64,000 bases of DNA, from assembly GCA_019694435.1 (NCBI GenBank), contig JAIBBZ010000011.1, positions 1 through 64,000 on the forward strand, in the 5' to 3' direction. The translations under genes were made by a program, and so were the position numbers. This document shows, piece by piece, positions 1,468-18,900 of the stretch; position 1 is the stretch's first letter; the number at the start of each line of letters is the position of its first letter. Source of the stretch: Pirellulales bacterium (GTDB taxonomy: Bacteria; Planctomycetota; Planctomycetia; Pirellulales; JAEUIK01). The notes beneath the pieces were generated by a model. The model did not search any database, was not told where the DNA came from, and saw only the letters and a list, made by a program, of their open reading frames with translations.

Positions 1468-1468
1468 G

Positions 1469-1852
1469 ATGACACACAAGATTCTTTCGCTCGTGGAGAA
1501 ATCGAGCCTCCGCCCGGACAAGCCGAAATTCGAGATCGGCGACACGGTCGACGTCCATACCCGGATCTTGGAAGGCGACAAGGAGCGAATCCAGATCTTC
1601 AATGGTGTGGTGATCGCCCGCGCCGGGGCCGGCAGCCGCGAGACGTTTACCGTGCGCCGCATCGTGCAGGGCGAAGGGGTGGAGCGCAAGTTCCCCTTGC
1701 ACTCGCCGAAAATCGCCAAGATCGAGGTCAAGCGCTCGGGTGTTGTCCGCCGGGCCAAGCTCTACTACCTGCGCGACCGCGTGGGCAAGGCGGTGCGGCT
1801 GACCGAGAAGCGCACCGATCGAGGCGGCAAGGACAAGAAGGCCAGCGTGTAA
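1469..1852 (+). CDS. rplS: Large ribosomal subunit protein bL19
   Basis: A 127-residue protein with the L19 pattern: [20 protein letters not shown] near residue 20, then [38 protein letters not shown] and a final [16 protein letters not shown]19 sits at the 30S-50S interface. The ATG at 1469 follows the trmD stop by one base and is preceded by GAAAGGA. It is the last gene of the ffh-rpsP-trmD-rplS group. Length matches the family closely. Confidence 0.98.
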
Positions 1853-1889
1853 TTCGACCCGTCCTGACCGGCGGGACGGGGCAGTCAGC

Positions 1890-2336
1890 ATGCAGGGCCA
1901 CGCAACCGGAAACACGTTGGGCTGGATGCTGCGGCTCGTCCCGGAAGCCTGGCGGCAATCGCTGCCCTTGGGGCGACGCGGTGAGCGCGCCGCGGCGCGC
2001 TATTTGCGCCGGCTGGGCTACAAGATCGTGGCTCAGGGCGACCGTTCGCGACCAGGCGAACTCGACTTGGTGGCGGTCGACGGCCGCACCGTCGTGTTTG
2101 TCGAAGTGAAGACGCGCAGCTCGCATCGCCGGGGCCACCCTGCCGAGGCGGTTGGTCCGGAAAAACAACGCCGCCTGGCACGCCTTGCGCTGGTTTATCT
2201 CAAGGCACACGGCCTCTTGGCGTGCGCCGCACGGTTCGACGTGGTTGCCGTGACCTGGCCGGCGGGCAGGCGGCCGTCGATCGAGCATTTTCGCAATGCC
2301 TTCTCGCCGCCGGGACGCGGGCAGCTCTACAGCTGA
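1890..2336 (+). CDS. yraN: YraN/UPF0102 family endonuclease-like protein
   Basis: The 148-residue product contains GRRGERAAARYLRRLGYKI, then RPGELDLVAVDGRTVVFVEVKTR. This is the signature of the UPF0102 (YraN) family, a small PD-(D/E)xK nuclease-fold protein. The putative metal ligands Glu and Asp of GELDL and the Glu and Lys of VEVKTR are all present. Its physiological role is not established in bacteria. YraN genes often sit close to rplS and rnhB, and this one starts 37 bases after rplS on the same strand. The start could also be an internal Met, since the first 25 residues are not typical of the family. Confidence 0.9.
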   Translation: MQGHATGNTLGWMLRLVPEAWRQSLPLGRRGERAAARYLRRLGYKIVAQGDRSRPGELDLVAVDGRTVVFVEVKTRSSHRRGHPAEAVGPEKQRRLARLALVYLKAHGLLACAARFDVVAVTWPAGRRPSIEHFRNAFSPPGRGQLYS

Positions 2337-2357: not shown

Positions 2358-4763
2358 TTAGCTCCCGGCCTCGATCCGCTGCAGGTCCTGCCTGGCGGCC
2401 GTGTAGTTGGGCGCGATTTCGATGGCCTTGCGCAAATGAGCGAGCGCCTCGTTGCGCCGTCCTTGCTGGTCGAGCAACAGTGCCAGTTGATGATGTGCCA
2501 GCGCCGAATCGGGATGGTCGGCCAGGGCTCGTTGCGACTCGGCCACGGCTGCGGCCAGTTGTCCCAGCGATGCCAAGGTCGCGGCCAGCGAGAGTCGCGC
2601 TTCGAGCAACGTGGGCTGGGCGTCCAGTGCGGCACGAAACTCGGCCGCAGCCGCGGCGTGCTGCCCCCGGCGCGAGAGGATCGCCCCCAGGTTGTAGTGT
2701 GCGTTCGCATCGCGAGGGTGTTCGTGCAATGTGGCCCGCAGCTCGCGCTCGGCCTCGTCGGCGCGGCCCATTTGCAACAAGGCGGTGGCCAGATTGATGC
2801 GCAGCTCTGTGCGCTGGGGCGCCAAACGGCAGGCTCGACGCAGATGATCCACGGCTGCGTCTGTCCGATTGGTCTGCAGCAGCACCTGGGCCAGCTGCGC
2901 GTGCATCGCCGGGTCGCGCGTATCGAGGCGCAGCGCGGCGCGGAAGCAGGCCTCGGCTTCGGTCGGTTGCCCGGCCTGGACCCAGAGCAACGCAGCACGC
3001 GAGTAGAGGCTCGCGGTCTGGTCGCGTCGGGCGGCGTCGTTCATCTCGCGGGCCGCTTGCGAAAAGTCCCCCGTCGCGGCGAGCGCGTCGGCCAGATTGA
3101 TTCGGGCATAGACATAGCTGGGGTCGGCCGCCAACACCCGGCGAAACATCTCGATCCCCTGCACAAGCTCGCCGCGAGCGGCCCGTGCCATGCCGACGGA
3201 ATTCATGATCCGCGTTTGCCCGGGCGCCAGAGCCAGGGCTCGCTCGTAACAGGCGAATGCGTCGTCGAACTGGCCCGCGTTGTGGTACCACTTGCCCAGG
3301 TTGTGCAAGGCACTGAGACTCTGCGGGTTTCGCCGAGCGGCCTCTTGGTAAAGTGCGGCCGCTACCGCAGGGTCGTCGTCGAGTTGCTCTGCCCGAATCG
3401 ACGCAAAGATCCAACTCGCTGGGTTTGTGCGCAAGACTCCTTCGGCCAGCGTAACGGGATCTCGCCAGAGGCTCTGCTGCTGGAAGGAGACCCCGGCCAG
3501 CAGTACCAGGCAGCCGCCAAGCACGAGGGTCCAGCGGGCGTTCTCCGCACGGCGATGATCGACGACGAGTGCCAAGAGCCACGCGACGGGAAGCATGGCG
3601 AGATACAAATAACGGTCGGCCACGGTTGAAATGTCTTGATGGCCGAACGTCACGAGCCCGAGCACCGGTGCCACTGACAACGCAAACACCACGGGAACGA
3701 TCCAGGCGGCGCGGTTGCGAGTCTTCCAGGCGAGCACGGCCGAGCCAAGCACCACGAGCACGGTTGCCGCGATGTAACCACTCTGCGCCGGCAGCGCGGC
3801 AATCAGTGCCTGGGGCGTGCGGCCGTAGTCCGGGACCAATCGCCAGGGCCAGACCAGGCAGGCGAGATAGAACCCCAGGGCATCGAGCGCGATCACCGGC
3901 CTCCAAGGCCAGGGATTTGCGAGCAGCATCGAGGCGTCGGTCTGCTCGCCGATCGTGACGCAAGTCACGGCGAATGCCGCGCCCAGCCAGGGCAACAGCA
4001 GGGCCAAGGCCGATTGCCAGGGACGCCGAAACCAGGCGACATCGAGCAGACCCACGATCGCCGGCACCATTACGACCAGCGGCTTGGCGACGGTCGCCAA
4101 CACGAACAGCGCCGTCGCAGCTGCATAGCGTCCCCCGGCGACGCCACGCACCGTTCGACCGTGGCTGGTAGCAGCGCGCAAATCAAGAAACAGAATCATC
4201 GCCCCCAGTGCGAGGCACGTGCCAAGCAGCCCTGGCAGCCCGGAAATCCACGCCACGCTTTCCACCTGCACCGGGTGCACAGCAAACAAGGCTGCGCCGC
4301 AACCTGCTGCACGGCGCGATGTGCCGAGGCGCGTCAGGAGCGCAAACACCAGGACCGTGGCCAGGGCATGCAGGGCGACAGCCGCGGCATGAAAGAGGAG
4401 CGGGTCGGCCGTCTCGCGCGTGCCGTGGCCCAGGGCCACGGCTGCCGCCGAGATCGCCAGGTACAGCGAATATCCGGCCGGGATGTATACACCGTGATAT
4501 GGCGCCGTCCAGAAGGCGGCGAACGCCCCCCAAGAAGGCCGCATCACGCGCTCGTTGGCGCTAACATAGACCTGATCGTCATAGCCGCAGAAGTCGAACG
4601 CGAGCGTGCGGCCGAACACGACGACCACGACCAACGCCAACGCGAGCGGCGCGTAACGCAGTTCGCGGCGAACCGTCTGCTTGCCGGCGGTACTTGACAC
4701 GATGCGTTCCATCACGGGTTCGACGCCGCGGCCAGCACGCCGGCGGTGCGATGCTGCCATCAT
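2358..4763 (-). CDS. TMTC-like membrane protein with C-terminal TPR repeats (801 aa)
   Basis: Residues about 35-460 form a multi-pass membrane domain and residues about 470-795 are eight or more TPR repeats. The first predicted non-cytoplasmic loop carries an acidic motif (YDD, 61-63), and HPVQVESVAWISGL follows near 160. This matches the bacterial relatives of eukaryotic TMTC proteins, which belong to the GT-C glycosyltransferase fold and use acidic residues in that loop. A transferase acting outside the cytoplasmic membrane is therefore plausible, but donor and acceptor are unknown. It starts four bases after the stop of the next upstream paralogue, so the two are probably translationally coupled. 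MERIVSS (residue 18) is an alternative start. Confidence 0.8.
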   Translation of the reverse strand: MMAASHRRRAGRGVEPVMERIVSSTAGKQTVRRELRYAPLALALVVVVVFGRTLAFDFCGYDDQVYVSANERVMRPSWGAFAAFWTAPYHGVYIPAGYSLYLAISAAAVALGHGTRETADPLLFHAAAVALHALATVLVFALLTRLGTSRRAAGCGAALFAVHPVQVESVAWISGLPGLLGTCLALGAMILFLDLRAATSHGRTVRGVAGGRYAAATALFVLATVAKPLVVMVPAIVGLLDVAWFRRPWQSALALLLPWLGAAFAVTCVTIGEQTDASMLLANPWPWRPVIALDALGFYLACLVWPWRLVPDYGRTPQALIAALPAQSGYIAATVLVVLGSAVLAWKTRNRAAWIVPVVFALSVAPVLGLVTFGHQDISTVADRYLYLAMLPVAWLLALVVDHRRAENARWTLVLGGCLVLLAGVSFQQQSLWRDPVTLAEGVLRTNPASWIFASIRAEQLDDDPAVAAALYQEAARRNPQSLSALHNLGKWYHNAGQFDDAFACYERALALAPGQTRIMNSVGMARAARGELVQGIEMFRRVLAADPSYVYARINLADALAATGDFSQAAREMNDAARRDQTASLYSRAALLWVQAGQPTEAEACFRAALRLDTRDPAMHAQLAQVLLQTNRTDAAVDHLRRACRLAPQRTELRINLATALLQMGRADEAERELRATLHEHPRDANAHYNLGAILSRRGQHAAAAAEFRAALDAQPTLLEARLSLAATLASLGQLAAAVAESQRALADHPDSALAHHQLALLLDQQGRRNEALAHLRKAIEIAPNYTAARQDLQRIEAGS

Positions 4764-4766
4764 AGC

Positions 4767-6356
4767 TCAGGGGCCGGAACGTACCTGGCCCAGCCGCTGG
4801 AGGGCCTCGATGGCCTTGGGGTAATCGGGCCGGAGGACGAGAGCCTTGCGGTAGTAGGCGACGGCCTCGTCGGTGTGCCCTTGCAGTTCGCAGATTCGTC
4901 CAAGGTTGACGTAGGCTCCCGCGGCAGCGGGCTGAATCGCCGCGGCCTCTCGGTACCAGCGTTCGGCCTCGGACCATTCGCCGCGACGGACGGCCGCGTG
5001 ACCAAGCGCATTGCAAGCGACCCAACTGCGCGGATTCAGCTCATAAGCATGCTGGAACAGCGCTCGGTCGTCGTGCCAAAGCAAGGTCTGCCGAAAGCTC
5101 AGCACACTGAGCGTGACAAGGAGCAGCACGCCGATGGTCGCCAGCCATCTTCGCGGCAGGCGAGCGCAGACGGCCGCGACCATCCATGCCGGCGCAATCA
5201 ACGCCAGGTAGGCGTAGCGATCGGCGGTGGTAGAAAACTGCTGGTAGTTGAACGGCACCAAGCCCAGAACCGGCAACAGCGCCGCCACGAAGATCAGCCA
5301 GGCCGCCAGCCAGCGCTTTCGCCCCGGGAGCAAGAAGGCTGCGCAAGTCACGGCGACCGGCACGGCGAAATCGAGCGCGCTGGCCGTGGCGAGCACTTGC
5401 TGCGGCGTGGCGCCGTAATCCGGCGAGAGTCCGGCGGGTGCGACCGTCTTGACGACGTAAAATCGCAAGGCCGTTGCGGCAACTTGCGCGCGCTCGCCGA
5501 AGCCGAGCTTGGGCAATTCGGTGACCAGTGTCGTTTGGATTTGCTGAGTGATCAGCGAGCACAGCGCGGCGGCCAGCAGCCACGGCGCGACGCTCGCCAG
5601 GCTGCGCCGCGCCGGGCGGACCGCCAGGAAGCGGTCGATTGCCAACGCGATCAGCGGCACGACAACTGCTGAGGGTTTGGCAAGCAGGCTGAGAACGTAA
5701 CTCGCCAGCGCCCACCCAGGGCGATGCTGACAGCGGTTCGCCGGCTCAGTTCGTACCTCGGCCGGCAGCCACAAGACGATGGCCCATACGGCAAACGCTG
5801 CCGAGAGCAAACCCTTGGCTTCGGTGACCCAGGCGACGCTTTCGACGTGCAACGGATGCAGGGCAAAACACAATGCGCCGACCAGGGCTGCCAGACGATG
5901 GTGGACCAGGTACCGCAGGAGTTGCCAGACGCCGCAGGACGCCAGCGCATGCCACACCAGGTTTGCGCCGTGGAACAAGACCGGGCGTTGTGCGATCTCG
6001 TCGGCCGCGACACCGAAGGCCAGTTCGGTGAGCCGCGACTCGATCAACCAGGAGGTATAGGTGACAGGCACGTAGAGATCGGCAAACGGCCGGGTCCAGA
6101 AGTACGCCAGGGCCACGTACCACGGTTGGTGCAGGACCTTATTCGAGGTGACGTTGACCGGGTCGTCCCAGCTGATGAACTCGGCAGTCAGCGCCGTGCC
6201 GTAGACGAGCAAAATCGCCGCGCAGATGACCGCGGCCGCTACTTGCCACGACGGACTTGCGGACGGCGGCGGATCGGCAAGACGGGGCGTTGCGGTCACG
6301 GGCGATTCCAAGACGCTTGAGGGCGAGCCAACCGGGCCGATTGGCGCGGCTCGCAC
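4767..6356 (-). CDS. TMTC-like membrane protein with short C-terminal TPR region (529 aa)
   Basis: A second member of the same family as its downstream neighbour. It has a leading transmembrane segment, an acidic WDD motif in FISWDDPVNVTSNK in the first external loop, and HPLHVESVAWVTEAKGLLSA. About ten hydrophobic segments follow, then only two or three TPRs (from ELNPRSWVACNALG to the end). It is about 270 residues shorter than the 801-residue paralogue, and the difference lies in the repeats. The GTG at 6356 gives the longest form; a GTG at VTATPRL about 18 codons inside is possible. It diverges from another paralogue starting near 6500. Function is inferred only from the GT-C-like fold. 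Confidence 0.78.
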   Translation of the reverse strand: MRAAPIGPVGSPSSVLESPVTATPRLADPPPSASPSWQVAAAVICAAILLVYGTALTAEFISWDDPVNVTSNKVLHQPWYVALAYFWTRPFADLYVPVTYTSWLIESRLTELAFGVAADEIAQRPVLFHGANLVWHALASCGVWQLLRYLVHHRLAALVGALCFALHPLHVESVAWVTEAKGLLSAAFAVWAIVLWLPAEVRTEPANRCQHRPGWALASYVLSLLAKPSAVVVPLIALAIDRFLAVRPARRSLASVAPWLLAAALCSLITQQIQTTLVTELPKLGFGERAQVAATALRFYVVKTVAPAGLSPDYGATPQQVLATASALDFAVPVAVTCAAFLLPGRKRWLAAWLIFVAALLPVLGLVPFNYQQFSTTADRYAYLALIAPAWMVAAVCARLPRRWLATIGVLLLVTLSVLSFRQTLLWHDDRALFQHAYELNPRSWVACNALGHAAVRRGEWSEAERWYREAAAIQPAAAGAYVNLGRICELQGHTDEAVAYYRKALVLRPDYPKAIEALQRLGQVRSGP

Positions 6357-6395
6357 GTTTATACAGGGCCAAACCGCCCCATTGGACCGATCGCT

Positions 6396-6425
6396 TTGAC
6401 AGTCCTCAATGGCGGTTCTTAAAGT
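6396..6425 (+). promoter_or_regulatory. Probable sigma-70 promoter for the divergent TMTC-like gene
   Basis: TTGACA at 6396-6401 is a perfect -35 box, followed after 18 bases by TAAAGT at 6420-6425, a 4/6 match to the -10 box. Transcription would begin near 6432. This supports a start codon well inside the longest open frame, which reaches back to 6257 into the oppositely oriented neighbour. Confidence 0.45.
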
Positions 6426-6499
6426 GGGTTTTTCGCAGTCTTGCCCGTCTCACGGTCATTGCCGCCCGTCGCCGGGGGTGTCCGCTGGCTCGTCGAGGT

Positions 6500-8221
6500 T
6501 TGCACCGCAAAGCCGATCGCGCGGCGCAGGCAACCGCCCCCGGGGCAAGCCGGCCTACGCTGTTCCTCTGGGCAATTTCGCTCGCATTGGCATTGACCAC
6601 CGTGGCGTTGTATGCCCGAGTGGCCACTTACCCCTTCCTGGAGTACGACGATCAAGACTACGTCTGGCGAAACGACATGGTCAGCCATGGTTTTTCAACG
6701 GCAGGCTGGCGGTGGGCCTGGACGACTCGGCATGCCGGCAATTGGCACCCGCTGACCTGGTTGTCGCATATGCTCGACTGCCAATTGTTCGGCGTTGAGC
6801 GCCCGGGTGCCCACCATTTGGTCAATGTTGGGCTGCATGCGGCAAACGCGTATCTGGTATTTGCCGTCTTGGTGTCGTTGACCAGAACGGTCGGGTCGAG
6901 CGCCCTGGTCGCCGCGCTGTTTGCGGTGCACCCACTTGCGGTCGAAAGCGTGGCCTGGGTGGCCGAGCGCAAGAACCTGCTGGCGATGATGTTTTGCCTG
7001 CTGGCCATCGGGGCCTATACGCGCTTCGCCCGCGGTGGTGGGCCGCGTTGGTACGGGGTCGTGTGGCTGTGCTTTGCCTTGAGCCTCATGGCCAAGCCGA
7101 CTTGGGTCACCTTGCCGATGGCTCTCCTACTGCTTGACTATTGGCCGCTGGAGCGCCTGGGTACATCGACCTGGCGAAGCCGGGTTGTCGAAAAGCTGCC
7201 GTTGTTGGTGCTCACCCTGGCCTCTTGCTGGCTCACGCTCGACGCACAACAGGTTGCTCGAGCCGATACCGAGACACTGCCGCTGGCCGTGCGGCTCGCC
7301 AACGCATCCGTGGCATACGTCGAGTATCTTCGTCAAGCGATCTGGCCCGTGGATCTGGCCGTGCTCTATCCGCATGCGCGCGGCGGGTTGCCGGCCTGGC
7401 AGGTGGTTGGTAGTGGCGCGGTGCTCGTGTTGATTACCGTCGCGGCTTGGTCGCAGCGAAAGCCGCGCCCTCAACTCCTCGTCGGGTGGCTGTGGTACTT
7501 GGGGACCCTGGTGCCAGTGATGGGCGTTGTGCAGGTCGGGATGCAGGCGCACGCCGATCGGTATACGTATGGTCCGCTTCTGGGCGTTTTTGGCGCGGTG
7601 GTCTGCCTGGCGGCCGAGTTGGCCCGTCGTGGGCGGCTCTGGCGAATGGCCGTGGTCGCCGTAGCGAGCGCGGCCGTCGTCTCGCTGGCTGCAGTGACCT
7701 ACGTGCAAGCGGGCTATTGGCGCGCTGAGCATGCCCTGTTTCAGCGCTGTCTCGACGTGGGCCAGGAGAGCGGCGTTGCGCACATGAACGTGGCTCTCGC
7801 GCTATTGCGCGAGCGCCAGCCGGCTGAGTCGATTGCCCACTTCGAGGCGGCCGCCCGACTGGAGCCGGGTCGCCTCGAAATCCACCTGGCCCTGGCCCAG
7901 GCGCTGCTGGAACTGGGCAATCCGGCCGCGGCCCATCGTGCGCTCGATCGGGCCTTCGAACTCGATGCGGATAGTGCCCGCGCCTGGTTTTTCCGCGGTC
8001 AGGCTTTTCGCGCCGAGAATCGTTTGCTTGAAGCAGAACAAGCATTTGCGCGCGCCGTCGAGCTGGGCCTCGGCAACGTAGCCGGCTATTTCAACTTGGG
8101 GATCGTCCGGCTGAGTTTGGGCGATCGGGCCGGCGGTGTCGCCGCGCTCGAAGAGGCCTTGCGACAGGCACCCGACGATGCGGAAATCCAGGCGATTCTG
8201 GCCCGCGAGCGCGGCCGCTAG
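6500..8221 (+). CDS. TMTC-like membrane protein with C-terminal TPR repeats (about 573 aa)
   Basis: This is the most canonical of the three TMTC-like proteins here. It has YPFLEYDDQDYVWRND in the first external loop, then GNWHPLTWLSHMLD, an HHLVN segment, and HPLAVESVAWVAERKNLLAM. A late membrane block and four TPRs follow (from HMNVALALLRERQPAESIAHF to the C-terminus). The start is uncertain because no ATG exists upstream of the first membrane segment. A TTG at 6500 is chosen because it lies downstream of a likely promoter and leaves a short basic N-terminus. A TTG at 6257 would overlap the divergent gene. An extracytoplasmic glycosyltransferase role is inferred from the family; the substrate is unknown. 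Confidence 0.78.
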   Translation: MHRKADRAAQATAPGASRPTLFLWAISLALALTTVALYARVATYPFLEYDDQDYVWRNDMVSHGFSTAGWRWAWTTRHAGNWHPLTWLSHMLDCQLFGVERPGAHHLVNVGLHAANAYLVFAVLVSLTRTVGSSALVAALFAVHPLAVESVAWVAERKNLLAMMFCLLAIGAYTRFARGGGPRWYGVVWLCFALSLMAKPTWVTLPMALLLLDYWPLERLGTSTWRSRVVEKLPLLVLTLASCWLTLDAQQVARADTETLPLAVRLANASVAYVEYLRQAIWPVDLAVLYPHARGGLPAWQVVGSGAVLVLITVAAWSQRKPRPQLLVGWLWYLGTLVPVMGVVQVGMQAHADRYTYGPLLGVFGAVVCLAAELARRGRLWRMAVVAVASAAVVSLAAVTYVQAGYWRAEHALFQRCLDVGQESGVAHMNVALALLRERQPAESIAHFEAAARLEPGRLEIHLALAQALLELGNPAAAHRALDRAFELDADSARAWFFRGQAFRAENRLLEAEQAFARAVELGLGNVAGYFNLGIVRLSLGDRAGGVAALEEALRQAPDDAEIQAILARERGR

Positions 8222-8305
8222 TTTTCAGCACGATCGACGCACCGTCGCCTAACGCCATTGATTGCAGAACTGATTTCGACAGATTTCGCAGGAACCTCGC
8301 ACGCC

Positions 8306-10963
8306 ATGTCTCAAGCCAAACGCTATTTCGATGCGTTGACCGGCGTGCGCGCAGCGATGATGTACCTGGTATTCCTCTGCCACTACAACTTTGTCGACCC
8401 GCGGATTTTCGGCGAGGTGCTCTACCGTTTCTCGCGCGAGTTCCACGTCGGCGTGCCGGTCTTCTACGTGCTGAGCGGGTTCTTGATCTACTACCGCTAC
8501 GGGCATCAATTGACGCGCATGTCGTGGCGCTGGGGCCTGCAGTACCTGCAAAACCGCGCCGCGCGGATCTACCCGATCTACTTCTTCGCGTTGACCTACA
8601 CCTACCTGGTGCGCGGCCTGCCACGCTGGTTCGACCACGGCTACTTGCGCGTTGATTGGCGCGAGACGCTCGTCACCTATACGCTCACCCAGTCGTTCTT
8701 CCCCGACCTGGTGCACAAAGGCATCGCCCAGGCCTGGACGCTGACGATTGAAGAGACGTTCTACTTCCTGGCACCCGTATTATTCCTGCTGGCCCACCTG
8801 GGCATTAATTTGCTGGGCCGGGGCATGAAGCCGCTGGCCGTCCAGGCACGCTGGGCGGCAGACGTCGTCGATGGTCTCTCGATCGCCGGCGTGTGCTTCT
8901 TGGTGGGGGCTTCGGGCGTGGCGCTGGCCGAGGTCTACCGGGCGTACTTTCCGCAATACGATCCGCTGAAGCATGTCTACGGTCGCACGTTGTGCGGCAC
9001 GATCGCCTGTTTCGGCAGCGGTATGTACCTGGCGCGCGTGGTGCTGCGCTACGGGCGCGAATTGCCCTCCGGAAGGCGGCCCTATTGGACGTACCTAGGC
9101 GCGTGCGCAGCGATCGGCGTCGTGTTTATCACGTCGCAGCTCTGGGTCTTTGTCGACCCGGCAACGCTGTCCGCGGGCAAAGTTCCCCGCGGGGTCGATC
9201 ACCCCTTGGGTGCGATCCTGGTATTCTGGGTGTTCCCGGTGTTCGTGGCCAGTACGATGTGGGGCCTAATGACCGAGGAGAGCCGGCTGCGGCGAGTGCT
9301 CGGCCACCCGCTGCTGGTCCTGCTGGGGGGAAGTTCCTATGTTTTCTACCTGATCCACTTGGGGGTGGTGCACGATCAGATTCAGCAGCGCGTCACCGAG
9401 AATTACGTGCTGCGGTTCTTGTTGTTGAACCTGATCGCGGTGACCGGGTTCGTGCTGGTGGAGCGGCCGGCCAACCTGTTTCTCAAGCACCTCGGGCACC
9501 GCCGGCCCGAGGGTCAGGACAAATCGACTGACGGCGAGCAAGGGTTTTTGCACATGTCGAGTCTCGTGTTTCCTTGGCCGGTCTACCTGGTGATCGCGGG
9601 CATCGTCCTGACGATCGAAATGCTGCCGCGGTTCCTGGCCGCTGAATACTCGCCGAGCAAGGTCGACGGCTGGCTGTTTCGCGAGGACGGCGTTTACGAG
9701 TCGGCCGAGGCCGTGCTGTGTCTTTTGGGGGCCGTGGCCTTCCTTTGGATCGCCGCCCGCGTACGCAGCGGTGAAGGCGACGAGCCACCCCAGCGGAACG
9801 ACCGCATCTGGCATTATGTGTTTGGCGCCGTCTGCATTTTCATGTTCGGCGAGGAAATCAGTTGGGGGCAGCGACTGTTGGGATTCAGCACGCCCGATTG
9901 GATGAACCGTCAGAATTTTCAGGGTGAGTTCACGCTGCACAATATGAAGGTTTTTCAGCCGGGCCAGACGACCAACGTCATGCAGGCCACGTGGTTATTA
10001 GGGATGCTTTTCTACCTGGGGATCTTGCCCTGGGCGCGGTTTGCCTTTGCGCCCGTGCGCGAGCTCCTGGACCGTTGGGGAATCCCCGTGCCCAGTTGGC
10101 CCATTGCGCTAGTGACTCTGGGTTGGTTCATCATCTACGCCTCTGGAGGCTATACGAGCAGCGAAGTCCTCGAGTTGGTCATCGTCTTTCTGTTCGGCTG
10201 CGTGGCGGCCGAGTCGTTCTTCCGCTTTCGCGGCGCACTGGGTGTTCAGGAAGCGCGCATCCTGGGGGCCACGTTGGCCGTGGTTGCCGCACTGTTTCTG
10301 GTGTCGATCCCCTTGCAAGGTGGCGACTCGGACCTGCCCAGCGTGCGCAGTATGAATCTCACCCGCCAGGCGGCCGACGAGTACAAGGAGAACAACCTCG
10401 ACGACGCGCGCCAGCACTACGAAGAGGCCCTGAAAATCTGGGAAGGCAACGGTATGGCGTGTTACGGGCTGGGCCGGGTCTTGATGTTGCAAGGCGACAC
10501 AGCCAAGGCCATCGAACAGTTTGGCAGAGCCGTGCAGCTCGAGCCCGAATACCAAGAGGCCAAAGAGCAATTGGCCTTGGCCTACTGGAAAGACGGCCGC
10601 GTGGCGGATGCCATCCGCACGCTGCAGTCGATCATCGCCGAAAACGAACAGCATCTTGGCGCGACGAACTTCCTGGCATGGCTTTGGGCGACCACTCCCG
10701 ATCAGTCGCTGCGCAATGGCAAGCAGGCCGTCGAGCTGGCGCGGCGCGTGTGCAACGCCGGCAAGCAGACTCCTGCCACTTATCTCGACACTTTGGCGGC
10801 AGCGCTTGCCGAGACGGGCGATTTTGAAAGCGCAATCAGCACGGCCCGACGTGCGGTCCAGGTGGCGCTCGAAGAAGGCAACGTGGCCTTGGCTGCGAAA
10901 ATCCAAGACCGGGTCGCGTTGTACGAGATCAAGCAGCCCTATCGTGAGGTATCCGGCAAATGA
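8306..10963 (+). CDS. Acyltransferase-3 / GEEISWGQR-domain / TPR fusion protein
   Basis: Three parts can be read in 885 residues. Residues 1-400 are an integral-membrane acyltransferase 3 (O-acyltransferase) domain, with the conserved His26 in FLCHYNF, VPVFYVLSGFLIYY near 51-63 and Glu149/150 in WTLTIEETFYF. Residues 425-670 are a second membrane domain containing REDGVYES (459-466), GEEISWGQR (515-523) and NFQGEFTLHNM (537-547). Residues 685-885 are TPRs ending in a distinctive helical module. The first part should move an acyl group onto a surface carbohydrate or lipid; the second has no function known to me. ATG 8306 is chosen because RYFDALTGVRA is the usual family start; a TTG exists at 8258. 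It overlaps the next gene by 4 bases. Confidence 0.85.
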   Translation: MSQAKRYFDALTGVRAAMMYLVFLCHYNFVDPRIFGEVLYRFSREFHVGVPVFYVLSGFLIYYRYGHQLTRMSWRWGLQYLQNRAARIYPIYFFALTYTYLVRGLPRWFDHGYLRVDWRETLVTYTLTQSFFPDLVHKGIAQAWTLTIEETFYFLAPVLFLLAHLGINLLGRGMKPLAVQARWAADVVDGLSIAGVCFLVGASGVALAEVYRAYFPQYDPLKHVYGRTLCGTIACFGSGMYLARVVLRYGRELPSGRRPYWTYLGACAAIGVVFITSQLWVFVDPATLSAGKVPRGVDHPLGAILVFWVFPVFVASTMWGLMTEESRLRRVLGHPLLVLLGGSSYVFYLIHLGVVHDQIQQRVTENYVLRFLLLNLIAVTGFVLVERPANLFLKHLGHRRPEGQDKSTDGEQGFLHMSSLVFPWPVYLVIAGIVLTIEMLPRFLAAEYSPSKVDGWLFREDGVYESAEAVLCLLGAVAFLWIAARVRSGEGDEPPQRNDRIWHYVFGAVCIFMFGEEISWGQRLLGFSTPDWMNRQNFQGEFTLHNMKVFQPGQTTNVMQATWLLGMLFYLGILPWARFAFAPVRELLDRWGIPVPSWPIALVTLGWFIIYASGGYTSSEVLELVIVFLFGCVAAESFFRFRGALGVQEARILGATLAVVAALFLVSIPLQGGDSDLPSVRSMNLTRQAADEYKENNLDDARQHYEEALKIWEGNGMACYGLGRVLMLQGDTAKAIEQFGRAVQLEPEYQEAKEQLALAYWKDGRVADAIRTLQSIIAENEQHLGATNFLAWLWATTPDQSLRNGKQAVELARRVCNAGKQTPATYLDTLAAALAETGDFESAISTARRAVQVALEEGNVALAAKIQDRVALYEIKQPYREVSGK

Positions 10964-12195
10964 CCGGTGACCTGCGCGAGGTCGCTGGCGCAACGGGCCG
11001 CGCGCCGCGCGCCGCGCCGTGGCGCTCCGTCATGCTGCTGGCGGCTGGGGCACTGGTGCTGGTCGTGGTGTTGATCCAGGCGCTCGTGCCCTGGCTCCAT
11101 CGAATCGACCGTACCGACTGGGCCGCGGCCGTGGTGCGCGAAGATGGCCTGTTCGAGTCCCTCGGCGCGATGGCATGCCTCGTGGCGTCGGTTGGCTGTT
11201 TCGCCACGGCCGCTGCGCTGCGCCGGCACGTGCCTGCGGCGTCCATGTCTCGGGTTGCCGCTTGGGTGGCCTTGGGCGCGATGCTGTTGCTGATGTTCGG
11301 CGAAGAGATCAGTTGGGGACAACGCGTCCTGGGGTTCGCCACGCCCGAGTGGGCACGCAAGGGCAACATCCAACGCGAGTTCAATCTGCACAATCTGCGG
11401 TTCTTCCATCCCGCGCTGAACTTGAATTGGCTGAAACTGCTGTGGAGCCTGGCGAGCGTCGTTTACTTGGGGCTGGCGCCGCTCGCTTTCGCCCTGGTGC
11501 GCCGCCGGGCGACACCCAACGTCGGGCACGCGGTGCCCGTCGCCGGTCCGGTCATTGGCGCATGCATGGTCGCCAGCTTCATCCGCTATTGGGTCGGGAC
11601 GCAGTCGGCGATTCGTGCCAACGACAATTTCGGCGGCCACGAGATTGGCGAGGCCTTCGAGGCGACCATCGAGCTGCTCTACCTGGCCTTGGTCGTCGAA
11701 GGTTTTCTTGCCTTGCGCGAGAATGGCTGGAATCTGCCCGTCGCCCGCTGGCTGCGCGCGCTGGGAGTAGCAGTCTCTGTGGGGTTGGTGATCTGCACGA
11801 TCGGCTGGTGGCGCTCGCCGGAGCTCGATTCCGAGGCCCTGGCCGGGATCCATTACCGTCGTGGCCGCTACCTGCTCGATCAGGGACGCCTGGGTGAGGC
11901 TTGTGAGGAGTTTCGCCTGGCCTCGCAGGCAGTCCCCGACGCCGCCATCGTGTATCTCGATTGGGCCAATGCACTCGCGTTGAACCACCGCGACAGTGAA
12001 GCGGCAGCGCATTACGAAGACTACTTGCGCTACTTCCCCGACTCGCCACTGGTCTGGCAGCAACTGGGATTGGCCCGGCTGCGGCTCGGGCAGCGCGGCC
12101 CGGCCGTGGCCGCGTTTGAACAGGCGATCGCACGCGGCGGCGACTCGCCGGAGAATCGGGCCAACCTCGAACGAGCCCAGGCGCTGTTGCCTTGA
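10960..12195 (+). CDS. Membrane protein with stand-alone GEEISWGQR domain and TPRs
   Basis: The 411-residue protein repeats the middle domain of its neighbour. It has REDGLFES at 60-67, GEEISWGQR at 114-122, NIQREFNLHNL at 136-146 and six to seven hydrophobic segments. Two or three TPRs follow from about residue 295. Its ATG overlaps the stop of the previous gene (ATGA), indicating translational coupling and probably a shared complex. The invariant acidic, Gln, Arg, Asn and His residues look like an active site in or near the membrane, but I cannot name a biochemical activity. The similarity to the fusion partner suggests a domain duplication within the locus. Confidence 0.82.
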   Translation: MTGDLREVAGATGRAPRAAPWRSVMLLAAGALVLVVVLIQALVPWLHRIDRTDWAAAVVREDGLFESLGAMACLVASVGCFATAAALRRHVPAASMSRVAAWVALGAMLLLMFGEEISWGQRVLGFATPEWARKGNIQREFNLHNLRFFHPALNLNWLKLLWSLASVVYLGLAPLAFALVRRRATPNVGHAVPVAGPVIGACMVASFIRYWVGTQSAIRANDNFGGHEIGEAFEATIELLYLALVVEGFLALRENGWNLPVARWLRALGVAVSVGLVICTIGWWRSPELDSEALAGIHYRRGRYLLDQGRLGEACEEFRLASQAVPDAAIVYLDWANALALNHRDSEAAAHYEDYLRYFPDSPLVWQQLGLARLRLGQRGPAVAAFEQAIARGGDSPENRANLERAQALLP

Positions 12196-12236
12196 CGAAG
12201 CGCGCTGGCGACGCGCTTGCGCAGGGCGCCGAGCGT

Positions 12237-14912
12237 TTACTGCGGGCGTTCGTGGTACGGAAGCTGATCCCGGTAAAGCGCCAACCGCGCTTGGTAGGTT
12301 CGCACGGCTGTTTCGTCGCCGTGTTGACGGGCCAGGTCGATCGCGCGGGTCGCGGTGGCGATCGCGGTCGCGAAATCCCCCGCTTCGGCATAGGCTGCGG
12401 CCAACGTGTCGAGCATACCCGCGCTGGGATGGTCAGTCTGCCGGCACATCGACTCGGCCAGCGCGACGGCTTGCGCGCCATCGCGCTGCGGCGCCGACGG
12501 GCAAGTCGCCAGCAGCCAGGCCAGGCGGTTGAGCGCTGCGACCCAGCCTGGGCGCAACGCCAGGGCTCGCTGGTAGTGATCCAGGGCTCGATGGAAATCG
12601 CCGGTCTGGGCCAGCAGATCGCCCCAACCGAGATCCACGGCCGGATTCTCGCTCTCCAGTTGTCGGGCGCGCTCGAGCCGGCTGCGCGCCTCGTCGAAAC
12701 GCTTTGATTTCACGAGCACGCTTGACGCCAGGAGATACCCGGCGGCACGATCGTTGGCCCGGGCTGCAAGTCGCTCAAACGCGGCGAGCGCCAGCTCCGT
12801 ACGGCCCGATTGAAGGTAGACATTGCCGAGCAGTTCTTCGACCTGCACGTCGTCGGGCGCGAGTTGCTGGACCATTTGCAGCTGCTGCTCGGCCGCGGAA
12901 AAATCGCGCTCGGCGAGCGCAATCTCGGCCAACAGCTTGCGCGGCGCAGTTTCCTTCGGCCGGTCGGCCAGGATCCGCTGCAACTGCTCTCGGGCGCGCG
13001 CGTGGTCGCCGTCCTGCAACAGCAGCCGCGCCAGCTCAAACCGGGTTTCGTGGCGCGTGGGATCGAGCCGCAAGGCGAGCTCGAACATTTGCCTGGCGCG
13101 CTGGCGTTGGCCGAGGCCGGCCAGATAGCGGCCGCGAGCGTGTAACCGGTCGACCGGCCAGAGCGTCGTCACGATGCGCAGTCCGGCGTCGCTGGCCGCT
13201 GCCGGAATGTATCTCTCGTAGATGAGCAGTGGCGAACCGGGAAAGCCATCGCGAAACAGCACGCGATCGCGAGGATCGGGCAGCGGAATCTCGCCCGTCG
13301 CGTTTTGTCGAAAGCGGTTGTTGAGATACACGAAGACCGGATCGGTAGGCGCGTCGTCGAGCACGGTATCGGCCGGCCGAAACGTGGACGTGGTAAACGA
13401 GTTCACCGACACGCCCGACAACGGGCGAGCCACATATCCCAAGCGCGGCAGCGACAGGAAATGCACCAGGGGGTTGCCCGCCACGATCGGGCGGCTACTG
13501 CAATGTTCGGCCAGGTAGCGCACCGCTAACTGATTGGCGCGGTGGTCGAGCAAATATTCGCGGCTCCGCTCGAGCACCGCGCCGGTGCGCAGATCGACGG
13601 CGGCCTCCGTGGGAATGGCCGGAAAAAACCGGCCGTCGGAGTTGGCGAGATTCAGACCGATGACGACCGCCAAGGCGGCCGACCCCAGCGTTCGTGTCCA
13701 CGCTGTGCGCCCCAGCAACGTGCCGACGATCAGATATACGCAGACCAGCGGCAGGCAGAGATATCGGGGGATCGTGTAGGCCACGGCCAGGGCCACGACC
13801 ATCAGCGCGACAATCAGCCACGCGAACAAATACAGCGGCTCGTTCAGGACGAGCGCCTGCCAGAGTCCGATGAGACGCCGGCTGGCGGTGAGTTCGCGTC
13901 TGCGGCGATGCCGCCCGGCAATGACGCCAGCCGCGACCAGGGTGCCCAAGAGGGCGACGGCGGCAACCGACAGAATGTCGGGGCACCAATACGGCAGGTC
14001 CGCCATCACGGCCATGCCGCGCGTGGTGTCGTGCTCGTAGTTTTCGGCCTGGCTTGTCGCCTGGGTCGACAGATAGACGACCAACAGCACCAGGCCATCG
14101 ACCAACAACAGGCTGGTGCCCAGGGCCAGCCACAAGCGCCGCCGCCAATGCGCGGTTGCGCGTGGATAGCGCGCGGCCGTGGCCACGACGAGATAGGCGA
14201 ACCAGGCCGCGCCGACGATCGCGCCGATCATCTTGCAGGCCGCGGCGACGAGCACCAGTCCGAACGCCGTGAAATTGCGCCCTTCTAGCATCGCCCCGAT
14301 GGCCAGCAAGGCGCAGAACACCATCGGTACGTCCATTCCCAACATGTCGATCTGCGTGGCCAGCAGGGGCGTCGTCAACGCGGCGGCGGCCGAGAGGACG
14401 GCCACGAGCGCTCCCGACCGCCGACGGACGATGGCAAACATCGTCAACGCGATCCCCGCGGCGCACGCAAACGTCAGCAGGTGATAGGCGATGAACACGT
14501 CGCGGGGCGCGGGCAGCGTCTTCATCAGCGCCGCCACGACGGTCGGCAACACGCTGATGAGATAAATCGCCGAGCCCCCTTCGACGAATCGCTTTTCCTG
14601 CAGCCACAGGCGCGGGTAGTCGAAGTTCGTGTCGGCCAGAAAATTGGCCTCGAGAAACAGCCCCATCGCCGAGTCCCAATAGGGCGGCGAAGCGACGATC
14701 TCGAAGCGCCAGGCCGTGATCAGCGCGAAGACAAACAGGAACGCCACCCCTCTGCTCAGCCGGGGGTGGCGCTGAACCCAACGAACCGTCGGGCCGGCAG
14801 CCGTACCAGATTCATCGGTCGTGGGCCGCGCGGCTCGATTCGGCATCGCCGGAGAACTGGAGACAGCCATCGGCGAATTGCGGCCCGGGAGCCAGGGACA
14901 AATTCGACTCAT
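12237..14912 (-). CDS. PMT/ArnT-like (GT-C) membrane protein with C-terminal TPRs (891 aa)
   Basis: Residues about 45-560 form a membrane domain of the dolichyl-phosphate-mannose/ArnT-like (PMT_2) type. A basic N-terminus leads into a first membrane segment, then an external loop YWDSAMGLFLEANF with an acidic residue where GT-C enzymes place their catalytic Asp. Ten or more hydrophobic stretches follow. Residues about 590-880 are seven or more TPRs, ending with LNRLAWLLATCPSAPQRDG and GMLDTLAAAYAEAGDFATA. The same end module is found in the acyltransferase fusion and the multiheme protein nearby. It converges with the gene ending at 12195. A sugar transfer from a lipid carrier is inferred from fold only. 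Confidence 0.82.
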   Translation of the reverse strand: MSRICPWLPGRNSPMAVSSSPAMPNRAARPTTDESGTAAGPTVRWVQRHPRLSRGVAFLFVFALITAWRFEIVASPPYWDSAMGLFLEANFLADTNFDYPRLWLQEKRFVEGGSAIYLISVLPTVVAALMKTLPAPRDVFIAYHLLTFACAAGIALTMFAIVRRRSGALVAVLSAAAALTTPLLATQIDMLGMDVPMVFCALLAIGAMLEGRNFTAFGLVLVAAACKMIGAIVGAAWFAYLVVATAARYPRATAHWRRRLWLALGTSLLLVDGLVLLVVYLSTQATSQAENYEHDTTRGMAVMADLPYWCPDILSVAAVALLGTLVAAGVIAGRHRRRRELTASRRLIGLWQALVLNEPLYLFAWLIVALMVVALAVAYTIPRYLCLPLVCVYLIVGTLLGRTAWTRTLGSAALAVVIGLNLANSDGRFFPAIPTEAAVDLRTGAVLERSREYLLDHRANQLAVRYLAEHCSSRPIVAGNPLVHFLSLPRLGYVARPLSGVSVNSFTTSTFRPADTVLDDAPTDPVFVYLNNRFRQNATGEIPLPDPRDRVLFRDGFPGSPLLIYERYIPAAASDAGLRIVTTLWPVDRLHARGRYLAGLGQRQRARQMFELALRLDPTRHETRFELARLLLQDGDHARAREQLQRILADRPKETAPRKLLAEIALAERDFSAAEQQLQMVQQLAPDDVQVEELLGNVYLQSGRTELALAAFERLAARANDRAAGYLLASSVLVKSKRFDEARSRLERARQLESENPAVDLGWGDLLAQTGDFHRALDHYQRALALRPGWVAALNRLAWLLATCPSAPQRDGAQAVALAESMCRQTDHPSAGMLDTLAAAYAEAGDFATAIATATRAIDLARQHGDETAVRTYQARLALYRDQLPYHERPQ

Positions 14913-15173
14913 AGCGGATAAACCCTCAGTCTAGAGCGCTGCGGCTGGGGCGGACAAGCTTCATCGGCCGATCCGCGGTGGGTGCACATGCCGCGCTGCG
15001 CACGGCGACGAACGCGACGCTTGCCCGACACGAACGCCGCAGCCGCAACCGGAGGCCAGTCCAGGGGGTTGCTGGTCCGCGACCTGACCCGATGTTACAA
15101 GAGAACCTGCAGCGGCCGGTCAATCGATGGCCCTCGCGGCGCGCCGGTCGAGACAACTTTTCGCCCAGATCTT

Positions 15174-17090
15174 GTGATAGAACTCCGCCAATCATTGATC
15201 GTCGCGGCGTTGCTCGCCGTTACCTTGGGCGCTGCTCGATGGTTCGGACCCGAGGCGGTGGCGCTTGCGCCTCAGGCGGCGCCCGCGGTTCCCACGCCTG
15301 ATGTGCGGCATGCCCAGTTTGTCGGACTCGAAACTTGCGCCGAATGCCATGCGGACAAGGCAGCCGGTTTCACGACGACGGGGCACTACCTGGCCATGCG
15401 GTTGCCCGAGCCGCGGCTGCTAGAGCAGGCGCTCGCCACGGCAGGCCCGACGATGGTGACTCGCTCGGAGAAGCTCGTTTACGAATTCACGCGTCAGAGC
15501 GACCAGTTTGCCTGGACTTCGGTCGACACGGTCGATGGCCCTCTGAACAAGCGCAGCGAGCCGGTGGCGCTCGTGATGGGCTCGAACAAAATGGGACTGG
15601 CCTTTTTCTATCGTCAAGGGACGGCGCTGTTCCAGATGCCCGTGATGTACGCGGCCTGCATCGACAAATGGAGCAATCCGCCAGGCTATCTCGACACCTG
15701 GGCCCGTTGGGACCGTTCGATCGATGCCCGCTGCCTGGAATGTCACTCGACCTACTTCGAGCAGATTCGCGGCTCGCAGAACTGCTACTACCCGGAAACG
15801 GCCATCCTTTCGATCACCTGCGAAAAATGCCACGGGCCCGGCAGTGCGCACGTGGCCCATCATCGCGAGGTGCCCGACGCCGAGAGCGGCGCGCATATCG
15901 TCAACCCGGCCCGGTTGTCGCGTGCGCGGCAGCTCGACGTCTGCGCCCAGTGCCACGGCGAGGTTGGGCAATCGCTGCAGCCCGAGTTCTCGTATCTGCC
16001 GGGCGAGCCGCTCGAGCAGTACATGGCTTTTACCGGCGACGAGGAACACTCGAACAAGGTCCACACGGTCAACCAGACGGCACGGCTGGCCAAGTCGGCC
16101 TGTTTTCAGCACAGCGAAATGAATTGCGCCACGTGCCACGACCCGCATGCGGACGAGCGCGGCAACGTTGCGCTGTTTTCCGGCCGCTGCCTGGAATGTC
16201 ACCAGGTGGCGCAGTGCGGCGTCTCGGCGCGTTTGGGCGATTCGATCGCGCGCAATTGCGTCGATTGCCACATGCCGATCCAGGACGACCAGAGCCTGCC
16301 GATGTACAACCTGGTCGGCGACAAAATGCGGCTGTTGCAGTTGCGAGACCACTTTGTGGCCGTCTATCCGCGCGAGTCGCAGGCCGTCGAGGCGGCGTGG
16401 AATTCGCCCGAAATGCAGCTCGACCCGCTCGAGCGAAGTTACCGCCTGGCCCGGCAACGGATCGCCGAAGCGGGCAGCCAGCGAGCCGCCGACCTGCTGG
16501 CCGCAGGCGACCGGCCGCAGGCCGAATGGGTCTGGCGGCAGACGATCGCGATGGTGCCGCACGAGCTGCTCCCTCGCACGCGCTACGCGCAATATTTGAA
16601 CGAGCAAGGGCGTTTCGGCGACGCCGCTGCGGCGCTCGAACCGCTGGCCGAGGCGGCTGCGACCGACGCCGGGGCAGTCGAGGCTTGGGGGTGGGCATTG
16701 ACGGGCACCCAGCAGACCGCCCGGGCCGTGGCGGCCTATCGCCAGGCGGTCGAACAGGGCATGGCGACTCCGGCGACCCGTTTGCGGCTGGCCTGGCTGT
16801 TGGCGACCGATGCTGATGACGCGCTACGAAACGGTGCCGAGGCGCTGGCTCTGGTCGAACCGCTGCTCAAGGCGGACTCGAACAGTTGGGCCCTGCTCGA
16901 CACGCAGGCCGCGGCCTTGGCCGAACTCGGCCGGTTCGACGAAGCGGTCGCCGCCGCCGAAGCTGCGCGACAGATGGCCGTCGCCCAACAACGTGCCGAC
17001 CTGGTGGCCGAGAGCGAAGAACGCCTCAAGCAGTTCCGCGAGGGCAAGCCGCATCGCCGGCGAAACCTTCGCGCTGGCGATGTGAAGTAA
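15174..17090 (+). CDS. Seven-heme cytochrome c fused to TPR repeats
   Basis: From the proposed GTG start at 15174 the protein has 638 residues. A signal anchor (LIVAALLAVTLGAARWFG) is followed by seven CxxCH heme-binding motifs: CAECH (55-59), CLECH, CEKCH, CAQCH, CATCH, CLECH and CVDCH. From about residue 420 there are TPRs ending in LRLAWLLATDADDALRNG and LLDTQAAALAELGRFDEA. The motifs predict covalent heme c and an electron-transfer or reductase role in the periplasm, with no closer assignment possible. An in-frame GTG at 14982 would add a basic stretch without a usual signal peptide. No strong ribosome-binding site precedes either start. Confidence 0.85.
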   Translation: MIELRQSLIVAALLAVTLGAARWFGPEAVALAPQAAPAVPTPDVRHAQFVGLETCAECHADKAAGFTTTGHYLAMRLPEPRLLEQALATAGPTMVTRSEKLVYEFTRQSDQFAWTSVDTVDGPLNKRSEPVALVMGSNKMGLAFFYRQGTALFQMPVMYAACIDKWSNPPGYLDTWARWDRSIDARCLECHSTYFEQIRGSQNCYYPETAILSITCEKCHGPGSAHVAHHREVPDAESGAHIVNPARLSRARQLDVCAQCHGEVGQSLQPEFSYLPGEPLEQYMAFTGDEEHSNKVHTVNQTARLAKSACFQHSEMNCATCHDPHADERGNVALFSGRCLECHQVAQCGVSARLGDSIARNCVDCHMPIQDDQSLPMYNLVGDKMRLLQLRDHFVAVYPRESQAVEAAWNSPEMQLDPLERSYRLARQRIAEAGSQRAADLLAAGDRPQAEWVWRQTIAMVPHELLPRTRYAQYLNEQGRFGDAAAALEPLAEAAATDAGAVEAWGWALTGTQQTARAVAAYRQAVEQGMATPATRLRLAWLLATDADDALRNGAEALALVEPLLKADSNSWALLDTQAAALAELGRFDEAVAAAEAARQMAVAQQRADLVAESEERLKQFREGKPHRRRNLRAGDVK

Positions 17091-17169: not shown

Positions 17170-17895
17170 CTACACCCCGAGTGGCCAATTCCTCCCCAAA
17201 GTTTTGCGCTGAAACTTGCCCAGCGTCGTGATGCCGCCGCGGGCCAGTTTGAGCAGAGCGGCCAGTTGCTTTTCGCTGAACGTGCTGCCTTCGCCGGTGC
17301 CTTGCACCTCGACGAACTGGCCTGCGCCGGTCATGACGACGTTCATGTCGACCTCGGCGCGCGAGTCTTCCTGGTAGTCGAGGTCGAGCACCGGGCGGCC
17401 CGCCACGATGCCCACGCTGATGGCCGCGACGCTATCGCGAAGCACCGGTGCCGGCGAGACGGGTTCGAGCGTCGCCAGGGCATCGGCCAGGGCGAGCCAG
17501 GCGCCGGTGATGCTCGCGGTGCGCGTGCCGCCGTCGGCTTCGAGCACGTCGCAATCGACGGTGATCGTTCGCGGGCCCAGGGCGGCGAGGTCGACGACGG
17601 CACGCAGGCTGCGGCCGATCAGTCGTTGGATCTCGGTGGTGCGGCCGTCGACACTGCCGCCCCGATCGCGGCGTTTGCGCGGGCTGGTGCTGCCGGGCAG
17701 CATGTTGTACTCGGCCGTGACCCAGCCCCGGTTTTCATCCTTCATCCAGGGCGGCACCTGCAAATCGACGCTGGCCGTGCAGAGCACGGTCGTACGGCCG
17801 GCTTGGAGCAGCACGCTGCCGGGGGCCGAACGCGTGTAGCGCCGCTTGACGCGCAGGGTTCGGAGCTGGTCGGGAGCGCGTCCGTCGGGTCGCAT
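17170..17895 (-). CDS. rph: Ribonuclease PH
   Basis: RNase PH removes nucleotides from tRNA 3' ends by phosphorolysis. The 241-residue protein starts [12 protein letters not shown] and contains [21 protein letters not shown], then [19 protein letters not shown] with the conserved Arg residues that bind phosphate and RNA. It continues with [23 protein letters not shown] and [10 protein letters not shown]. Length is typical. ATG 17895 is chosen because the family begins there; the frame is open upstream into the end of argF. It is the last gene of the argB-argD-argF run, 49 bases after argF. Confidence 0.96.
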
Positions 17896-17944
17896 GCGTG
17901 ACCGTGGCCTGTCTGGTTGAGGAGGAGCGAGGGGGGCCGTTCGG

Positions 17945-18865
17945 TTAGCGTGCCTGGGGGCCCAGCAGCCAGGCGAGGATCCCCTTTTGCACATGCAACC
18001 GGTTGCCTGCCTGTTGCACGACGACGCTCTGATCGCCGTCGATTACCTCGGCGGAGACCTCCTCGCCGCGGTGCGCGGGGAGGCAATGCATGAACAACGC
18101 GTCGCGCGGCGCGGCCTGCATGAGCCGCTCGTTTACCTGGAACGGAGCGAAGGCCTGGCGCCGCAGATCGCGCTGTGCCTCTTGGCCCATGCTGGTCCAG
18201 ACGTCGGTATAGACGACCGTCGCGCTGCGTACCGCGGCTTGGGGATCGCGCGTGACGGTCAGTTGCAGCTCGGGTACCTGGCGACGGCAGATCTCCAGAA
18301 AATCGGCGTCGAACTCATAACCGTCGGGCGCGGCCAGGACGAACGGCATCCCCAGTTTCCCACAGCAGATGGCCAGGCTCCGCGCCACGTTGTTGCCGTC
18401 GCCGATGAAGGCCACGGTGTGTCCGGCGAGGCAGCCAACGCGCTCGCGGACCGTGTACAGATCGGCCAGCGATTGGCACGGGTGGAAATAGTCGGTCAGG
18501 CCGTTGATGACCGAGCAGGTGCAATAGCTGGCCAGGTCGAGAACCGTCTGATGGCGATAGGCACGAACGACGACTACGTCGACATACTCGCTGAGCACGC
18601 GGCCGAAATCGGCCACGCTCTCGCGCGAGCCCCAGCCGACGTCGTTCCCTAAGAACAGGCTGCTGCCGCCGAGGTGGATCATCGCGGCTTCGAAGCTGAC
18701 GCGCGTCCGCAGCGAGGGTTTTTCGAAGAGCAAGGCCATCACGCGGCCCGGCAGAATCGACTCGCGCAGACCATCCTGGAACTTGGACTTGAGGTCCTCG
18801 GTAATGGCGAAGATGTGCTCCATCTCCGCCGCCTTGAGATCGGCCGTCGTAATGAGGTGCCGCAT
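17945..18865 (-). CDS. argF: Ornithine carbamoyltransferase
   Basis: This enzyme joins carbamoyl phosphate to ornithine to give citrulline in arginine biosynthesis. The 306-residue protein carries the carbamoyl-phosphate loop [13 protein letters not shown], the HPCQSLAD segment, YTDVWTSMG and the ornithine-binding/catalytic [13 protein letters not shown] 18865 is preferred because AGAGGA lies 8 bases upstream. An ATG at 18904 that overlaps the argD stop would add 13 residues ([13 protein letters not shown]). It follows argD by 35 bases on the same strand. CarA, which supplies the carbamoyl phosphate, is encoded elsewhere in this window (56490-57626). Confidence 0.96.
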
Positions 18866-18900
18866 GGCACGCGATCCTCTTGAAATAGCCGTGCTGGCCG

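Follow-up and report, generated by a model that had tools for sequence, protein, structure and literature searches.

A seven-gene block of TPR-tailed membrane and redox proteins in a Pirellulales bacterium, a candidate locus for O-glycosylation and glycan acylation of surface proteins

Introduction

The animal O-mannosyltransferases TMTC1-4 (CAZy GT105) and TMEM260 (GT117) act on Ig-like folds, and their TPRs have been proposed to recruit the substrate (PMC11292533). The TPRs of TMTCs are luminal, and full-length TMTC-like proteins with TPRs have already been reported in prokaryotes (PMC7801869). Proteins of the acyltransferase-3 family (PF01757; OafB, PglI, OatA) move acyl groups to the outer side, in many cases to SGNH (PMC9833829).

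We analyzed a 64,000-nucleotide stretch of DNA from a Pirellulales bacterium (the window; contig JAIBBZ010000011.1, positions 1 to 64,000), in which seven genes with unlike front domains and TPR tails stand in a row. Three of their products resemble the animal TMTCs in the GT-C domain, about 11 TM segments, an acidic pair in the first extracytoplasmic loop and C-terminal TPRs; they differ in their large paralogous expansion in the host and in lying together with genes for an acyltransferase, GEEISWGQR proteins and a cytochrome. The acyltransferase of the block has the R-X10-H motif and a Pfam match above the cut-off as in acyltransferase-3 proteins, but its C-terminal partner is a GEEISWGQR domain with a TPR instead of an SGNH domain in fusion; in the corresponding cluster of relatives, SGNH is a separate gene. 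That cluster is also tied to an exosortase/EPS operon and contains a PEP-CTERM protein, as in the PEP-CTERM/exosortase (XrtA/EpsH) system, although the GT-C-TPR, acyltransferase-GEEISWGQR-TPR and cytochrome-TPR proteins are not among the components named in those parts of the system's founding paper drawn on here (PMC1569441). With a probability of roughly 0.5, we read the block as one functional locus for the periplasmic O-glycosylation, and the acylation of the resulting glycan, of exported surface proteins.

Results

Seven TPR genes fill the interval between yraN and rph

The window was examined to 26 kb, together with a tRNA-Arg gene at 48343-48417. Both the ORF list and a Pfam search agree with an earlier note on this DNA, which had described seven consecutive genes with C-terminal TPRs at 2358-17090 and had named their front domains. 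The genes (g1-g7, oriented - - + + + - +) and their borders are as follows.

724..2336, + strand: left border, trmD, rplS and a yraN-like gene (1890-2336), contiguous with rph/argF in six relatives
2358..4763, - strand: g1, TMTC-like GT-C glycosyltransferase, about 11 TM segments, about 10 C-terminal TPRs, 801 aa
4767..6356, - strand: g2, TMTC-like GT-C with 2 TPRs, 529 aa, 3 bases upstream of g1
6440..8221, + strand: g3, TMTC-like GT-C with 3 TPRs; start codon putative, the ORF opening at 6257
8306..10963, + strand: g4, acyltransferase-3 (R-X10-H), GEEISWGQR multi-TM domain and TPR with the terminal module
10960..12195, + strand: g5, GEEISWGQR multi-TM domain with 3 TPRs
12237..14912, - strand: g6, PMT/ArnT-like GT-C and TPR with the terminal module
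14982..17090, + strand: g7, membrane-anchored seven-heme cytochrome c (C554-like) with the terminal TPR module
17170..21360, - strand: right border, rph, argF, argD and argB

The two coupled pairs that had been pointed out earlier are correct, g4 and g5 overlapping by 4 bases and g2 and g1 being separated by a 3-base gap. The block is not a single operon and comprises four transcription units, (g2,g1), (g3,g4,g5), g6 and g7.

The genes trmD, rplS, the yraN-like gene, rph, argF, argD and argB are neighbors in six further genomes of the order, with 28-2142 bp from rplS to rph, compared to 15,318 bp in the window genome, where this gap holds the seven TPR genes and yraN. The seven genes lie exactly between the end of yraN (2336) and the start of rph (17170); in G003 the yraN-like gene stands on the opposite side of rph. 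The block is bounded, its left edge following yraN, the last old gene on that side. Insertion as a mobile element was considered and drew no support from the borders or the composition: a comparison of the two borders for direct and inverted repeats of at least 8 bp gave none, and the base composition of the seven genes is unshifted and native.

By hand count, the 6.13 Mb window genome holds at least about 70 distinct TPR_19-positive ORFs, so that seven in a row would be unexpected at random. With TMTC-TPR, PMT-TPR and other TPR genes so numerous in the family of the host, such a run might nevertheless be the product of duplication and drift at a site that tolerates them, with no shared function. 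Most of the TMTC-like genes (about 23) and PMT-like genes (9) of the genome have TPRs, and they often come in pairs or triplets; other TMTC-TPR and PMT-TPR clusters are also present, and the terminal TPR module described below is generic, all of which would suit such a history. However, the front domains of the block come from unrelated families, and orthologous g3 and g4, as well as g6 with a TMTC and a cytochrome gene, are linked elsewhere in the chromosomes of other genera. We consider a chance assembly improbable and already weakened by these linkages.

Two kinds of predicted GT-C glycosyltransferase

The front of g3 is, as modeled, a GT-C fold closest to STT3/PglB and Pmt: its AlphaFold model (pLDDT 90) gave a Foldseek probability of 1.00 to structures of oligosaccharyltransferase STT3/PglB and of Pmt. 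The acidic pair (YDD/WDD) and the ADRYxY motif are present in g1, g2 and g3, the fronts of g1 and g2 are 37% identical, and the two acidic residues, D49 and D50, are invariant among 29 TMTC-like homologues. None of these 29 matches Pfam DUF1736, and the consensus of the TMTC-like alignment has K-P at the K-E position of the animal M4 motif, KE(T/Q)xxT, which is absent; for these two reasons we have not filed the window genes under GT105.

The g6 product appears distantly PMT_2-like. Six of 21 homologues of its type match PMT_2 (PF13231) at E values up to 0.1, while g6 itself has no match at E 0.1 and, as a further difference from the PMT/ArnT family, carries a TPR tail. To our knowledge, ArnT and Pmt have no such tail.

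With the N-terminus inside, hydropathy counts of 11 TM segments for g1 (a false segment within the TPRs being left out), 9 for g2 and 7 for g5 place the predicted C-terminus outside, and the single TM segment of g7 would leave its heme domain outside. For g3 and g6 the count is 10, an even number, and the simple count leaves the side of the TPRs unsettled. The count is unreliable for g4, in which a 10-TM acyltransferase followed by a 7-TM domain would predict a C-terminus outside.

An acyltransferase fused to a domain of predicted enzymatic character

The match of g4 to Acyl_transf_3 (PF01757) scores 49.5 bits (cut-off 31), the R-X10-H motif reads RAAMMYLVFLCH, and orthologues occur in G001, G002 and G006. 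Behind its acyltransferase g4 has the GEEISWGQR domain, which is also the front of g5 and matches no family in Pfam or NCBIfam. In a model of g5 (pLDDT 87), a membrane domain made of helices precedes the array of TPRs; the best 50 matches in a fold search of the PDB involve the TPR part only, and a profile of the domain found no match among PDB sequences. Eight residues of the domain are invariant (E116, P129, N136, E140, H144, N145, E231 and E234) and two nearly so (E115 and Q138), and these suggest an enzyme. Like the cpCone clade of the Lipocone superfamily (PTDSS-like; PMC12419801), the domain pairs an invariant His with a nearly invariant Gln that precedes it by six residues, and has two invariant Glu with two residues between them; the likeness is one of residue spacing (Gln-x5-His, Glu-x2-Glu) without a match in sequence or fold, and we treat membership of that clade as a lead only.

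The domain occurs in 36 of 392 genomes of the phylum, mostly as a stand-alone protein of 220-330 aa without TPR or acyltransferase, and was for that reason discarded as a phylum-wide marker of the cassette when taken by itself. Every copy found in the family of the host is TPR-fused, and the acyltransferase-GEEISWGQR fusion was seen in that family only, with full-length alignment in two named genomes only. Given the short, unfused form that prevails across the phylum, the fusions seem to be characteristic of this family.

The terminal TPR module is shared well beyond the block

In Pfam the TPR of g7 is weak (TPR_14, E 0.002). Its C-terminal residues, about 95 in number, form a TPR module that also ends g4 and g6 (39% identity to g6 for g7 and 46% for g4) and is missing from the other four of the seven genes. 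The window genome has 27 copies of this module, and it is present in all 10 genomes tested, including one from another family of the class. Copies of the same front class are no more alike than copies of different classes (36.0% versus 37.4% identity); outside the cluster, the module is found mostly on proteins with N-termini resembling signal peptides. It also ends a 1709-aa protein (L222, G010:C1:784100-790200) and a GYF-trypsin-TPR protein (L212, G000:C3:73700-77000), a use wider than exported enzymes.

The earlier note had proposed that the TPRs bring the enzymes together on a common scaffold or substrate and had suggested a comparison of TPR phylogenies. The first idea is not supported as it was put: the terminal module is scattered over the genome and the order, its copies inside the locus resemble one another no more closely than others do, and four of the seven genes lack it. 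Nor does the comparison reveal a TPR lineage of the locus: the terminal-module tree is poorly resolved and does not group g4, g6 and g7. The wide occurrence of the module, with no closer likeness within a front class, speaks for an interaction module of general use, mostly extracytoplasmic, and against a scaffold restricted to the locus. By analogy, recruitment of a protein substrate, as proposed for the animal TMTCs, would fit better than a shared scaffold.

Most of the gene set recurs in two other genera

Seven genomes of the family were compared, the relatives being draft assemblies. Two of them, G001 (a Pirellulales bacterium of genus JAIESQ01) and G006, represent two other genera of the family and have most of the set elsewhere in the chromosome, in similar order.

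G001:C150: PMT (-), SGNH (+), TMTC (-), TMTC (-), repeat surface protein (+), TMTC of the g3 type (+), acyltransferase-GEEISWGQR-TPR (+), UpxY (-)
G006:C47/C125/C83: exosortase/EPS operon, PMT, seven-heme cytochrome, TMTC, SGNH, repeat surface protein, TMTC of the g3 type, acyltransferase-GEEISWGQR-TPR, UpxY

The order in G006 is one that we infer from overlaps of exactly 127 bp between the three contigs. In phylogenetic trees, g3 groups with the TMTCs of G001 and G006 that adjoin the acyltransferase-GEEISWGQR genes (SH-aLRT 95), and g6 groups with the cluster PMTs of the same genomes (99/91). An assignment of g1 and g2 to the G001 TMTC pair found no support: both fall outside the clade of that pair, at poorly resolved positions. 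The earlier note had proposed looking for conserved neighborhoods in other planctomycetes. The clusters in G001 and G006 bear this out in part; three of the seven family genomes, on the other hand, have no GEEISWGQR genes, the stand-alone GEEISWGQR-TPR gene lies outside the cluster in both G001 and G006, and the cytochrome is placed elsewhere in G001 (C182). Apart from these clusters, G001:C101:5019-18666 (L111) holds five PMT-like genes in 14 kb, one of them with TPRs by a quick scan.

The product of g7 has seven CXXCH motifs and matches Cytochrome_C554 at 30.8 bits (cut-off 20.8), and orthologues with seven CXXCH each are found in G001, G002 and G006. The cytochrome might itself be the point of the locus, which would then serve to mature or position it at the surface, with the glycosyltransferases decorating the cytochrome or a partner. 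In G006 its gene overlaps a TMTC gene by 4 bases and adjoins the PMT gene, and a TMTC and the cytochrome are near neighbors in G002 (C362) too; its separation from the cluster in G001 counts against such a redox module, which we regard as very unlikely. In the glycosylation scheme that we prefer, the cytochrome has no place and is unexplained.

The surface protein encoded in the cluster ends in a PEP-CTERM-like tail, CLPEPSTWVAILLSGGALAFFHRRKKRKT in G001 and CVPEPTTWVVIALSGGAMALATRLRRRKSA in G006; the latter passes the Pfam PEP-CTERM cut-off, and the former is not among the matches listed. At 26.7 bits, the match between the repeats of this protein and an Ig-like domain of Pfam falls just short of the cut-off of 27. 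A separate locus of G006 (C14:28617-34715) has seven PEP-CTERM matches about 1 kb apart on one strand in open frames of 2427 aa; these represent sorted surface proteins in a tandem array or repeat.

The operon linked to the cluster encodes an exosortase, a chain-length/tyrosine autokinase, an EPS polyprenyl glycosylphosphotransferase and an XrtA-type polysaccharide deacetylase. It adjoins the cluster in G006, and its homologue in G001 (C179) adjoins the stand-alone GEEISWGQR-TPR gene, the counterpart of g5. Both clusters also have an UpxY-type antiterminator beside them. Such antiterminators usually occur at polysaccharide loci. These linkages favor the main rival, in which the cassette modifies exopolysaccharide or an outer-membrane glycolipid instead of proteins: the GT-C enzymes would transfer sugar, as ArnT does, onto lipid-linked or lipid A glycans, g4 would acylate them, and the TPRs would assemble the enzymes with the EPS machinery. 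Against modification of EPS or lipid A stand the PEP-CTERM surface protein gene inside the cluster in both G001 and G006 and the precedent for protein glycosylation by GT-C enzymes with luminal TPRs (PMC11292533). We judge this alternative possible but on balance unlikely.

PEP-CTERM, exosortase and SGNH genes are dispersed in the window genome

An exosortase and a PEP-CTERM protein encoded together with the cluster were found in G006 and partly in G001, and not in the window genome. There, the one exosortase lies on contig C17 near an UpxY gene, the closest homologue of the surface protein, with PEP-CTERM, is on C15, and SGNH homologues are found on C3, C5, C6 and C43. Those on C3 (TPR-fused) and C43 are within about 4 kb of TMTC genes. 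By a hand count over three genomes, 5 of about 10 SGNH loci of the cluster type are at most 4 kb from a TMTC gene, a proximity that is suggestive only, as two of the five loci defined the query.

Across the window genome, PEP-CTERM matches lie within 5 kb of 7 of 23 TMTC genes versus 3.2 expected (p 0.03, assuming independence), with no enrichment at 2, 3 or 10 kb and none beside PMT genes; limited to one distance and to TMTC genes, the enrichment is not convincing, and we set it aside. Individual loci include three TMTC-TPR genes with two PEP-CTERM matches between them (L064, G000:C16:57989-67230) and a same-strand run of a PMT-TPR gene of the g6 clade, a TMTC-TPR gene and a PEP-CTERM gene (L063, G000:C22:22521-29493).

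Discussion

Two observations lead us to read the block as one functional locus: it is bounded, and most of its set is clustered in two other genera. The earlier suggestion of an envelope modification locus, as opposed to unrelated neighbors, is borne out by the yraN-rph borders and by the recurrence of the set with SGNH, a PEP-CTERM protein and an exosortase/EPS link.

In our preferred scheme, the TMTC-like g1-g3 and the PMT-like g6 would transfer sugars in the periplasm from polyprenyl-phosphate carriers to Ser/Thr of exported proteins. The acceptor protein would be recruited by the TPR tails of these enzymes, on the periplasmic side, in the manner put forward for TMTC and TMEM260 of animals. 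The glycan would be O-acylated with an acyl group brought through the membrane by the acyltransferase-3 part of g4, with SGNH as its partner in relatives, and the GEEISWGQR domain of g4 and g5 may be a membrane-bound enzyme whose substrate is a lipid carrier or a lipid head group. The likely client in relatives would be the repeat surface protein with its PEP-CTERM sorting signal, encoded in the cluster. In the window genome, the enzyme block stands alone between yraN and rph, the genes comparable to those partners being dispersed. We infer all of the activities, the donor sugar, the client, the detailed topology and the role of the TPRs in the cassette.

Several findings speak against proteins as the target. 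The window genome has no PEP-CTERM client, exosortase or SGNH gene near the block, the operon linked in relatives is an EPS operon, and lipopolysaccharide or exopolysaccharide can also be the target of GT-C and acyltransferase-3 enzymes. Moreover, few relatives have the cluster, and all are draft assemblies.

A bolder form of the protein reading, which we hold to be doubtful, is a bacterial counterpart of the animal TMTC pathway, in which the expanded set of GT-C-TPR enzymes would O-glycosylate the beta-sandwich (Ig-like) repeats of exosortase-sorted surface proteins and the glycan would be finished by the acyltransferase and by GEEISWGQR as a new class of membrane enzyme, the whole forming a relocatable cassette.

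The locus links prokaryotic TMTC-type enzymes, the PEP-CTERM/exosortase system and an unclassified membrane domain, none of them well understood. If our preferred reading is right, the g3-type TMTC and the adjoining PEP-CTERM repeat protein in two genera would be a candidate enzyme-client pair, and the targets of bacterial TMTC glycosylation and the binding partners of the TPRs would become testable.
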